From: Pseudomonas sp. FP2335 | GTDB lineage: Bacteria > Pseudomonadota > Gammaproteobacteria > Pseudomonadales > Pseudomonadaceae | Length of the DNA: 64,000 nucleotides | Assembly: GCF_030687535.1 (NCBI RefSeq) | Contig: NZ_CP117437.1 | Coordinates: forward strand, 5,205,501-5,269,500 | Reading direction: 5' to 3' | Shown: one piece after another, positions 1 through 41,469 of the stretch | Position numbering within the stretch: the first letter of the stretch is position 1 | How the letters are laid out: each line of letters opens with the position of its first letter | The notes under the pieces: generated by a model | What the model saw: only the letters and a program-made list of their open reading frames with translations | Told to the model about the DNA's origin: nothing | Database searches by the model: none | Translations under genes and position numbers: made by a program

Positions 1-797
1 ACCGCGTACTGATCCGCGTGCCCAAGACCCTGGCGCTGCTGGAAGAACAACTGATCCGCCTGCAAGGCCAACTCGCACCGGGCGCCGAAGTGATCGCCGG
101 GGCCATGATCAAGCACCTGCCGCGGGCAGCCGGGGAGTTGCTGGAGCGCTACATCGGCCCGATGCACGCCTCGCTCGCGGTCAAAAAGGCTCGCCTGTTG
201 ATCGCCACCGTTGAAGAGCGCCCCGCAGCGGTCTCGCCCTACCCAACCCGCTACACGCTGGATACCCCGGCTATCGAACTGCTCAACCACGCCAACGTGT
301 TCTGCCGCGAAGGCCTGGACATCGGCACCCGCGCCTTCCTCCCGCACCTACCGAAAAACCTCGGCAACGCCCGCGTGGCCGACCTCGGCTGCGGCAATGG
401 CGTGCTGGCGATTGCCAGCGCCCTGCAAAACCCCGAGGCGCAGTACACCCTGCTGGATGAGTCCTACATGGCCGTGCAATCGGCGCAGGAAAACTGGCAC
501 GCCGCCCTCGGCCAACGCGACGTGAACGTGCGCGCCGCCGATGGCCTGGCCGGCCAGGAGCCTGATTCGCTGGACGTGGTGCTGTGCAACCCGCCCTTCC
601 ACCAGCAGCAGGTGGTCGGCGACTTCCTCGCCTGGCGCATGTTCCAGCAGGCGCGCGAAGCGTTGGTGGTCGGTGGCGCCCTCTATATAGTCGGCAACCG
701 TCATTTGGGTTATCACAGCAAATTGGCGCGGCTGTTCCGTGGTGTCGAACAAGTGGCCGCCACGCCGAAATTCGTCATCCTCAAAGCGCGCAAATAA
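1..797 (+). CDS. rlmG: RlmG, 23S rRNA guanine-N2 methyltransferase (5' truncated by window edge)
   Basis: C-terminal two thirds of an RlmG-type enzyme, which methylates N2 of G1835 (E. coli numbering) in 23S rRNA using SAM. The frame is open to the left edge, so the true start lies outside the window; the GTG at 18 is internal. About 265 residues are visible. The SAM-binding motif DLGCGNG and the catalytic NPPFH motif typical of guanine N2-methyltransferases are both present, and the protein ends in FVILKARK followed by TAA. A strong hairpin directly downstream ends the transcript. Family assignment is firm; the exact target nucleotide is inferred from homology. Confidence 0.9.
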   Translation, partial: RVLIRVPKTLALLEEQLIRLQGQLAPGAEVIAGAMIKHLPRAAGELLERYIGPMHASLAVKKARLLIATVEERPAAVSPYPTRYTLDTPAIELLNHANVFCREGLDIGTRAFLPHLPKNLGNARVADLGCGNGVLAIASALQNPEAQYTLLDESYMAVQSAQENWHAALGQRDVNVRAADGLAGQEPDSLDVVLCNPPFHQQQVVGDFLAWRMFQQAREALVVGGALYIVGNRHLGYHSKLARLFRGVEQVAATPKFVILKARK

Positions 798-29154: not shown

Positions 29155-29265
29155 ATCGTTCCCACGCTCTGCGTGGGAATGCAGCCCTGGACGCTCTGCG
29201 TCGATTCTTGAAGTCGTGACGCGGAGCGTCACAGGAGGCATTCCCACGCGGAGCGTGGGAACGAT
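29155..29265. repeat. Nested long inverted repeat (CCCACGCTCTGCGTGGGA class)
   Basis: Outer arms 29155-29182 and 29238-29265, each itself a hairpin (CCCACGC-TCT-GCGTGGG). Inside them is a second inverted pair, GGACGCTCTGCGTC / GACGCGGAGCGTC. The sequence class is common in fluorescent pseudomonads and differs from the REPINs elsewhere in this window. Confidence 0.85.
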
Positions 29266-29269
29266 GAAC

Positions 29270-29324
29270 AGGCCAGCTCCCACAGTTGGAATGCATTCAA
29301 CTGTGGGAGCTGGCTTGCCTGCGA
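29270..29324. repeat. Near-perfect palindrome of GCTGGC-class REP arms
   Basis: GCCAGCTCCCACAGTTGGAAT ... ATTCAACTGTGGGAGCTGGC, centred near GCATTC, with almost no spacer. It directly adjoins the nested repeat. Confidence 0.8.
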
Positions 29325-29602: not shown

Positions 29603-30093
29603 TTCTTGCCTCATAGGCGCACTTAGACAAGCGTGATAGTTAAGTCACAGGTCAAAGTTTTATGCGGATTGAGACAGGAACCAGAAGGGTCTGACGGCAC
29701 CATCAGACTTAACCTACCGATAGCTCTAAAATCGGCTCAAAGGCCCGGAATTTCAATGGCCAGCAAGACCGATCTCTTTCATTTGAGGGATGTTTCCTAG
29801 AGAATTCCACGGCCTTGTTTACGTCGGATCAGGTAGATAGTCTCGCCCAGTCATCGAATATTCGGTGAACGGACGTGCAAGTCCGATGGCAAGAAGGCTC
29901 ATAAATCAACCTACAGCTTGACGCTCAGCTTCCAGGCTCTGCGCTTGCCCGTTATGGCAGCTGTGCGTGGGAGACCTTCGGGTCTGCTGGGTTTTCGCTT
30001 CTTGCCCCGGTCTTGCACACCTACGCACAGTTGCCACCCTATTCGCGTGCAAGCGGACGGTGGCAGCTTCTTCCTTAGCAAGAGGTGTTTACC
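29603..30093. other. AT-richer intergenic stretch with structured leader RNA
   Basis: 491 bp. A small hairpin (GTCTGA 29689-29694 with TCAGAC 29703-29708) and a CGGAC/GTCCG hairpin near 29870-29885 lie in the first part, where I see no gene. From about 29930 the conserved-looking leader of the DUF6124 gene begins. GC is lower than elsewhere. Confidence 0.6.
29955..30066 (+). ncRNA. Structured 5' leader of the DUF6124 gene: three-way junction with an alternative pairing
   Basis: The outer stem pairs 29955-29968 with 30023-30036 (14 bp, one G-U). Inside are a hairpin AGACC-UUCG-GGUCU (29972-29985, a UUCG tetraloop) and a stem CUGGG/CCCGG (29987-29991 with 30006-30010). The 3' arm of the outer stem is contested: UUGCCACC (30031-30038) can instead pair with GGUGGCAG (30059-30066), 15 nt before the AGAGG ribosome site. 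Two exclusive folds near a start codon are the layout of a cis-acting regulatory RNA. I recall similar sequences before other DUF6124 genes in Pseudomonas, but cannot check that here. Confidence 0.65.
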
Positions 30094-30390
30094 ATGGTCA
30101 AAGTCACCCCCGATCCACCCAGTTTTCTCAGCGAAGACGCCCTGCTCCACCGCCGAGCCATCGACTACTACCTCAAAGCGTCCGCCCCGGATGCGCCGAA
30201 CTTCATTCTGAATGACAACCTGAGCTTCGAAGACGCCCTCGCCCATGCGGCGGATTTGCTGCATTGCGCGGTAGAGACAGCACACTCATCGGCAGAATCA
30301 ATGAATGTGCAGCAGCGGGCAGTGATGCATCTGGTGGAGATGGCGAAGGTGGTCGTGGATCAGACGCTGGATTGCACACAGTCTCGATGA
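30094..30390 (+). CDS. DUF6124-family protein (formerly grouped with DUF3077)
   Basis: 98 residues, starting MVKVTPDPPSF with AGAGG 8 nt upstream; the frame also allows a GTG three codons earlier. The opening VKVTPDPP and the C-terminal helical part (LSFEDALAHAADLLHCAVETA...AVMHLVEMAKVVVDQTL) match the DUF6124 pattern, which is almost confined to Pseudomonas and occurs in several copies per genome. Probably soluble, all-helical. Function unknown. The gene follows the structured leader above and is followed by a REPIN, so it forms a self-contained cassette in the AT-richer patch. Confidence 0.75.
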   Translation: MVKVTPDPPSFLSEDALLHRRAIDYYLKASAPDAPNFILNDNLSFEDALAHAADLLHCAVETAHSSAESMNVQQRAVMHLVEMAKVVVDQTLDCTQSR

Positions 30391-30405
30391 ACGACACATG
30401 ACCCC

Positions 30406-30511
30406 TGTGGGAGCGGGCTTGCCCGCGAAGGCGGTGTGTCAGTCAATATTTCCGGCGACTGATCCACCGCTTTCGCGAGCAAGCCCGCTCCCACACAAGC
30501 CCGTTCCCACA
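30406..30511. repeat. REPIN (GCGGGCTTG class)
   Basis: Arms TGTGGGAGCGGGCTTGCCCG and GCGAGCAAGCCCGCTCCCAC, plus a partial third arm CAAGCCCGTTCCCACA. Between convergent genes. Confidence 0.88.
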
Positions 30512-41174: not shown

Positions 41175-41262
41175 AAAAGAAAAGGGGTGACCCGTCGGCC
41201 ACCCCTTGAGAACTTCGTCCGTGCTCAACGCTTTTGACGTTGGCTCACCTCACGCCGTCTTG
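41175..41262 (-). ncRNA. Candidate small RNA with its own terminator
   Basis: On the minus strand a classic terminator (stem AAGGGGTG/CACCCCTT, 41207-41200 with 41189-41182, then UUUUCUUUU) has no gene upstream of it to terminate. Just before it is a hairpin CAACG-UCAAAAG-CGUUG (41244-41228) flanked by pairing GUG/CAC. A sigma-54-like element (TGG-N10-GCA, 41287-41272) is the right distance upstream for a transcript of about 85-90 nt. Promoter assignment is weak; the terminator is strong. Confidence 0.45.
41182..41207 (-). terminator. Rho-independent terminator without an upstream gene
   Basis: 8-bp stem AAGGGGTG/CACCCCTT with a 10-nt loop, followed on the minus strand by TTCTTTT. See the sRNA candidate. 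Confidence 0.75.
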
Positions 41263-41400
41263 TGGACAGTGTGCAGCCTGGAGGCCAACTCAACCCTGCT
41301 GGGGTGGCGGCCGCAGCAGGCCTGATTGGGCGAGCTGCTTTGGACTGTTGTCCAGGCGGTGATTCTGTTGATAAAGATACCTGCTAGCGCCCGGCAGATG

Positions 41401-41469
41401 ATTGCGAAGATTGCGTCAATAAACAGTGCTTGCGCAATTTTTAACCCTTCATGGATAATTCACCGCAAT
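41401..41469. promoter_or_regulatory. Four ATTGCG/CGCAAT half-sites before the Lrp-type regulator
   Basis: ATTGCG at 41401-41406 and 41410-41415, CGCAAT at 41433-41438 and 41464-41469, the last 22 nt before the ATG. Two in each orientation; pattern suits a multimeric regulator such as the adjacent gene product (inference). Confidence 0.45.

Follow-up and report, generated by a model that had tools for sequence, protein, structure and literature searches.

The window, that is, the whole stretch of 64,000 nucleotides of Pseudomonas sp. FP2335 that was analyzed, carries at 30094..30390 (+) a DUF3077/DUF6124 gene encoding 98 amino acids, whose open reading frame matched both Pfam families above both cut-offs (DUF3077, 33.8 bits with a cut-off of 21; DUF6124 (PF19619), 33.1 bits with a cut-off of 27). 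An Rfam covariance-model scan of the whole window placed an RF01695 (C4 antisense RNA) match upstream of this gene, at 29950..30041 (+), with a score of 67.2 bits against a cut-off of 45. Judged by its sequence, the structured leader is a member of the known C4 antisense RNA family from phages P1 and P7, and this match rules out the new RNA class that a preliminary description of the DNA had put forward. The window held two Rfam matches above cut-off, the second being P24, a Pseudomonas sRNA, at 41184-41437 (-) with 250.6 bits. REP-like intergenic stretches of inverted repeats lie on both sides of the cassette, at about 29160-29270 and 30405-30500.

The C4 element consists of three stems. The outer stem P1 joins 29955-29971 with 30020-30036 through 17 pairs, two of them G-U, and encloses the UUCG-capped P2 hairpin (AGACC-UUCG-GGUCU, 29972-29985) and a second stem, P3 (GCUGG/CCGGU), so that P1, P2 and P3 form a three-way junction. 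The RNA fold of these 92 nt (29950-30041) was predicted at -46.9 kcal/mol with a z of -5.21, and 0/200 shuffles were equally stable. The preliminary description had correctly recognized the outer stem, although with a length of 14 bp, as well as the UUCG-capped hairpin and second stem of the three-way junction, both of which are present in the sequence and in the fold; it had overlooked the two pairings of loop and junction with the leader that mark a C4 RNA.

These pairings involve a junction recognition segment, a' (CTTGCAC, 30012..30018, +), and a P3-loop recognition segment, b' (CGCTTCTTGC, 29996..30005, +), where our labels follow the order of the targets (a upstream, b at the Shine-Dalgarno (SD) sequence) and published labels may be reversed. 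Segment a' is complementary to target a1 (GTGCAAG, 29875-29881, +), which lies in a hairpin loop of the predicted fold, and to target a2 (GTGCAAG, 30047..30053, +), which lies just 3' of C4 in a small hairpin loop. Segment b' is complementary to target b1 (GGCAAGAAG, 29888-29896, +), identified by exact complementarity to C4, and to target b2 (GCAAGAGGTG, 30078..30087, +), which contains the SD sequence AGAGG at 30081-30085, correctly placed by the preliminary description, in front of the ATG at 30094. At this locus, a' pairs at 7/7 positions and b' forms 10 pairs including G-U, covering AGAGG. The locus combines a score above the curated cut-off with two leader-complementary segments, one of them over the ribosome-binding site. 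The upstream target region as a whole (29837..29896, +) was assigned from this exact complementarity, by the fold and by a match to RF03163 (upstream C4 targets) that reached 30.7 bits at 29837-29889 in a local scan, under the cut-off of 46.7. A candidate promoter, TTGTTT - 17 nt - TAGTCT, is found in the sequence at 29815..29843 (+); the pattern TTGNNN-16..18-TAGTCT was present at 28/41 C4-bearing loci related to this one, and its strict form at just 13/108 loci of the three-genome set described below. The upstream target copy and promoter-like site (29815-29896) had likewise been overlooked and lie outside the extent previously given for the element, 29955..30093.

The downstream protein was compared with several collections. 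The predicted DUF6124 fold comprises three helices (mean pLDDT 76.7, pTM 0.55); Foldseek searches of PDB and BFVD with it gave nothing at E 0.001 or better. The window protein gave no match in NCBIfam, PHROGs (E 0.1) or PADLOC, and none by tblastn in the phage collection; likewise, tblastn returned nothing for a canonical DUF6124 protein (L133) in plasmids or for the DUF3077 protein of locus L052 in phages. The latter protein matches phrog_36471 at 40.5 bits, and the Bro-N protein of locus L056 matched 158 phage records by tblastn, all with <60% identity. A search of the main text of open-licence papers yielded no mention of DUF6124; DUF3077 is mentioned at least once in open-licence text.

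We then surveyed the abundance of both components. Across 59 Pseudomonas genomes, there were at least 997 C4 matches and 688 DUF6124 matches, with a Spearman correlation of 0.88 between the per-genome counts. C4 was found in 54/59 genomes (53 above cut-off) and DUF6124 in 47/59. The median number of C4 matches was 14 per genome, with 20 or more in 25 genomes and 40 or more in six; because the survey scored no more than 61 candidates per genome, its highest counts may be low, and genome G049 had at least 54 in the survey and 55 in the per-genome table, the largest C4 number in one genome. DUF6124 reached 43 matches in one Pseudomonas genome. The FP2335 genome itself holds 11 C4 matches (10 above cut-off) and 9 DUF6124 matches, eight of each occurring together. 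In four genomes, 8/9, 35/41, 34/43 and 33/38 DUF6124 genes (110/131 overall) had a same-strand C4 no more than 700 bp upstream, which bears out the suggestion in the preliminary description that like leaders precede other DUF6124 genes. Conversely, DUF6124 lay downstream of 8/11, 35/55, 34/42 and 33/41 C4s in the same four genomes, FP2335 first. Some C4s without DUF6124 precede DUF3077, Bro-N or family-less small proteins: of ten proteins downstream of C4 that were scanned with Pfam, Bro-N, DUF3077 and DUF6124 accounted for two each and four matched no family, and the remaining downstream proteins were assigned to groups by inspection. The C4 copies are scattered round the chromosome on both strands in G049, G019 and FP2335.

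To examine recognition, we used all C4s of the FP2335, G049 and G019 genomes (11, 55 and 42, respectively; 108 loci), testing every loop and junction both on its own leader and on the leaders of other loci in the same genome. The loops are highly diverse, with 104 different ones among the 108 loci. The junction 7-mer was fully complementary to its own leader in 91/104 cases, in contrast to 16/4413 foreign combinations; in these counts, four loci with a shorter junction segment were left out and foreign loci were those with a different 7-mer. Each of the seven junction positions used at least three Watson-Crick pair types across the loci. A loop Watson-Crick run of at least 7 was found with the own leader in 71/108 loci and in 112/4802 foreign combinations, and both contacts together (junction 7/7 and loop run of at least 6) were present in 75/104 own pairs compared with 2/4402 foreign pairs. 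By summed duplex energy, the best leader for a C4 was its own in 10/11, 43/55 and 35/42 cases in FP2335, G049 and G019. In the opposite direction, the best C4 for a leader was its own in just 10/11, 28/55 and 23/42 cases, and the own loop run was below 7 in 37/108 loci; both observations count against the explanation that we favor below, as do the RF03163 score under its cut-off at this locus, the five of 108 C4 matches under the RF01695 cut-off and the partial conservation of other leader structures.

The individual targets were also recovered across this set. A 7/7 match to a1 was present in 92/104 loci, the own upstream region being strictly best in 76/104, and b1 reached a run of six or more in 66/104. 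For b2, 82 loci had a run of this length; a start codon lay no more than 19 nt behind it in 79/82 (median gap 9 nt), and an SD-like core was located in or adjoining it in 62/82.

Relatives of the window protein, collected by a scan of named genomes, occupy 55 Pseudomonas loci, of which 36 keep at least one of three window neighbors (an AsnC-type regulator, an exonuclease and a third ORF). Within this one chromosomal location (23 C4-bearing loci with 21 different loops; L152, misplaced by the scan, left out), runs between loop and SD averaged 6.04 for own combinations versus 4.80 for swapped ones, and 0/2000 swaps reached the observed value, kinship being ignored. In a wider set of 37 unique combinations, the corresponding values, again ignoring kinship, were 6.49 and 4.54 for mismatched combinations, with 0/2000 swaps. 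Covariation of the stems, a check proposed earlier, was borne out for P1: with kinship ignored, 1419 paired cells were observed, whereas shuffling gave 1288 on average and 1320 at most (87 unique arm pairs, after removal of four loci with <13 P1 pairs), and both-side changes occurred at 14/17 pairs. Both-side changes at all five pairs were also seen in P3 (20 unique arm pairs), a stem that was itself placed by its pairing; the count covered these two stems. The median dN/dS was 0.18 over 23 C4-bearing sequences and 0.35 over 7 C4-less ones. Loop-SD coevolution, P1 covariation and the median dN/dS of 0.18 argue that the cassettes are under selection. The hairpin displaying a2 had a stem score of 9.95 against 8.69 (sd 0.23) with shuffled flanks, and an anti-SD stem scored 11.08 against 9.91 when swapped (0/300; 86 loci used), and these two modestly conserved structures may tune repression.

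Taken together, we conclude that the locus is very probably a chromosomal C4-type antisense RNA cassette that represses DUF6124 translation. Family membership, the complementarities, cognate specificity, coevolution and gene association are read directly from the genomes; transcription, processing, action in trans and repression are assigned by analogy with P1/P7 and Acinetobacter. According to our model, one promoter would transcribe a1/b1, C4, a2, and b2 over the SD sequence, followed by the DUF6124 gene. The C4 portion would take its three-stem form and RNase P would probably release it by cleavage at the foot of P1, following the P1/P7 example. Its junction would then pair with a2 and its P3 loop with b2, which would block the ribosome and keep DUF6124 low. 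As each cassette has its own a and b letters, each C4 would be expected to silence mainly its own mRNA. Control of translation of the adjoining DUF6124 gene, as the preliminary description had proposed for the RNA, would also be its most likely job. C4 silencing is the best reading because the contacts are of the same kind as in published C4 systems. Accounts of phage P1 describe c4 RNA as a trans-acting repressor of Ant synthesis (PMC8546580) that binds around the ribosome-binding site (PMC12197685), and changes near the C4 binding site are noted for P1vir (PMC8198154, PMC8201110). For Acinetobacter, a group of 21 C4-like RNAs with apparent processing at a GG motif is described (PMC5320573).

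Compatible with C4 silencing is an addiction-like arrangement, in which unregulated DUF6124 would be harmful and C4 would serve as an RNA antitoxin; from the sequences, we consider it possible but doubtful. The pertinent observations come from the 55 related loci, 43 of which carry C4 (41 by scan; L152 and L201 by eye, a rescan detecting that of L152 and not that of L201), whereas 12 lack it (seven rescanned, five judged by eye from their leaders). All 12 C4-less loci belong to the 36 with the neighbors of the window. A Pro-Pro pair among residues 1-14 occurred in 42/43 C4-bearing proteins (L170 by eye; L201 not resolved) versus 0/12 C4-less ones, and four of the 12 have no intact 5' end. In the window, the corresponding gene start, encoding the N-terminus where the question of this TP(N/D)PP motif arises, is 30094-30120. 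Early Pro-Pro-Glu/Asp could stall ribosomes. The TP(N/D)PP-type start was found in 71/76 C4-led DUF6124 proteins of the three-genome set and was rare elsewhere (DUF3077 0/6, Bro-N 1/4, unassigned group 2/13), so it is a DUF6124 trait and no general mark of C4 control. Among 15 DUF6124 matches without their own C4 in G049 and G019, an early Pro-Pro occurred in L214, L218, L219, L220 and L221, the last four of which each sit behind another, C4-led DUF6124 gene. The addiction-like reading also draws on locus L002 and on a C4 outside the genus that precedes a SymE_toxin family gene. At L002 (FP2335 genome, C1:6030701 +), the C4 scores 79.3 bits and has matching targets, and the DUF3077-like frame that follows it seems to begin with ACG, so that perhaps the RNA is intact and the gene silent. 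However, PADLOC gave no match, some C4-less copies still have full-length frames, and the C4-less copies are related by descent. The link between loss of C4 and loss of Pro-Pro is based on perhaps three independent losses, and we regard it as a lead and not as proof.

It is improbable that the C4s form a trans network that mainly silences other paralogues or incoming phage genes, with the own leader as a secondary target. Such a network would accord with accounts of P1/P7, in which c4 sets immunity in trans (PMC8546580, PMC12197685). Eight of the 12 C4-less related loci (L171, L173, L174, L176, L184, L186, L179 and L187) keep an a-type hairpin GTGCAAG before the gene, which could make them trans targets of a C4 located elsewhere. 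Nevertheless, the foreign pairs with both contacts noted above are too few to favor it. Immunity of the P1/P7 immI type was considered and rejected, as the gene is DUF3077/DUF6124, gave no tblastn match in the phage collection and has the same neighbors at 36/55 related loci.

Less probable still is a cis switch, in which the 3' arm of C4 would either close P1 or pair with GGTGGCAGCT and thereby alter access to the SD sequence, with no free antisense RNA. Its basis is a copy of the P1 5' arm at 30059..30068 (+), the partner of 30029-30038: the 8-bp pairing reported earlier (30031-30038 with 30059-30066) is real and extends to 10 bp. Over the 108 loci, the mean run of this pairing was 6.57 bp, compared with 6.21 (sd 0.09) for swapped leaders, none of 200 swaps reaching it, and 5.65 bp for shuffled letters, kinship being ignored here too. 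The alternative pairing exceeds chance, yet it is weak beside the loop and junction contacts. When forced in 29950-30110, it gave -60.6 kcal/mol versus -66.4 for the P1 form, 5.8 kcal/mol less stable, and it left the inner part of P1 and both hairpins intact; moreover, C4 would fold first during transcription. A switch as the main mechanism needs two mutually exclusive, similarly stable and conserved structures, which these values do not provide, and the switch-like behavior suggested in the preliminary description was accordingly demoted.

That the cassettes are non-functional prophage remnants is scarcely credible: 5/108 C4 matches are under the cut-off, some of them degenerate (L011, L104, L106), and 12/55 related loci have no C4, but the copies are scattered round chromosomes and the evidence for selection given above argues against decay.

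To place C4 silencing in a wider range, we analyzed two draws of genomes. In the class-wide draw of 185 genomes, C4 was found in seven, FP2335 included (6/184 others), and in the order-wide draw of 115 genomes in 15, FP2335 included (14/114 others, with one to six matches each), which contradicts the earlier view that the RNA is specific to Pseudomonas. DUF6124, by contrast, was found in FP2335 alone among the 185 class-draw genomes, consistent with the Pseudomonas-restricted family that had been stated. We used 27/30 C4 loci outside the genus (L204-L247; L206, L211 and L248 left out; the L208 row is wrong because this locus was mislocated); a perfect junction target was present in 14 and a loop run of six or more in 25, with foreign 7-mers matching in 4/694. 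Of five downstream proteins scanned outside the genus, four passed a family cut-off (SymE_toxin, KilA-N, AntA and Bro-N) and a further Bro-N match stayed under it; these partners suggest that the older C4 setting was probably a phage or mobile-element module. At L210, from gammaproteobacterium G135, a C4 with matching targets is followed 51 nt behind by an ORF assigned to SymE_toxin (48.8 bits, cut-off 29), where C4 would control a type I toxin family.

Five consecutive T between a1/b1 and C4 were present in 25/27 loci outside the genus versus 29/108 in Pseudomonas and are absent there from the window; downstream of C4, such a run occurred in 13/108 Pseudomonas loci. A terminator-like hairpin with a T run was found between a1/b1 and C4 in 19/108 loci (letter-shuffled mean 2.9, maximum 5) and downstream of C4 in 5/108, and none lies in the window between a1/b1 and C4, so terminator attenuation was rejected as a general Pseudomonas feature. 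The T run is perhaps an older feature relaxed in Pseudomonas; it is possible that it marks an attenuator, or a discrete a1/b1 RNA that soaks up C4, and that it has mostly been lost in Pseudomonas. Rho coupling is known in P1. A C-rich, G-poor early coding stretch, found in four gene groups (6, 76, 4 and 13 loci), was considered as a Rho-loading site and set aside as not discriminating, eight C4-less loci being similar.

The cassette resembles the C4 of P1/P7 (RF01695, targets RF03163) in its three-stem fold, in having C4 precede its target, both on one strand, and in its two recognition segments, with one target over the ribosome-binding site and a candidate second target pair upstream. It differs in that the Pseudomonas C4s are chromosomal, with up to 55 copies per genome, in that the partner is DUF6124/DUF3077 (some Bro-N) rather than the Ant of P1, in that the phage collection returned nothing for the window protein, and in that the window lacks the T run before C4 that most loci outside the genus have. 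It shares with the Acinetobacter baumannii Group 1 C4-like sRNAs a large number per chromosome (21), a variable recognition loop and, in the description in PMC5320573, apparent processing at GG; the targets are left open in that description, whereas here matching targets are found with the next gene downstream, as judged from sequence alone. Type I toxin-antitoxin RNAs generally lie opposite their genes. As in such systems (e.g. SymE), a small RNA would cover the ribosome-binding site of a small protein, and one C4 outside Pseudomonas precedes a SymE_toxin family gene; here, however, C4 lies upstream on the same strand.

The C4 family is listed for Proteobacteria and phages (PMC2864571), and that work is credited with also predicting C4 in Pseudomonadales (PMC5320573), so the presence of C4 in Pseudomonadales is not new. 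Among the open-licence papers listed for C4 with Pseudomonas, no title deals with the arrangement described here, which is weak evidence. What is apparently undescribed is the re-use of C4, as seen in these genomes, in a large chromosomal group whose specificities are private and whose partner genes are new. Evenly balanced in our judgment is the broader proposal that a phage immunity RNA has given rise to a collection of lock-and-key cassettes, up to about fifty per cell, in which each C4 would recognize essentially its own leader only, dozens of related small proteins (DUF6124, DUF3077, some Bro-N) would be switched independently, lock and key would coevolve at fixed sites, and loss of C4 would go with loss of TP(N/D)PP, as though the cell did not tolerate this form without regulation. 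The independent switching would follow, if true, from private recognition through the junction-to-hairpin-loop and loop-to-SD contacts. The DUF6124 family thereby gains a concrete candidate regulator and an experimental handle, as breaking the C4 loop should switch the gene on. A single cell also provides tens of related antisense-target pairs as a natural set for studying the evolution of RNA specificity without cross-talk. For Pseudomonas, the cassettes suggest an answer to the question of C4-like targets raised by the Acinetobacter description (PMC5320573), namely the gene next door. At L085 in G049, a C4 precedes a Bro-N protein with the DUF6124-type start MIKVTPNPPE, hinting that genes may exchange their leader together with the first codons.
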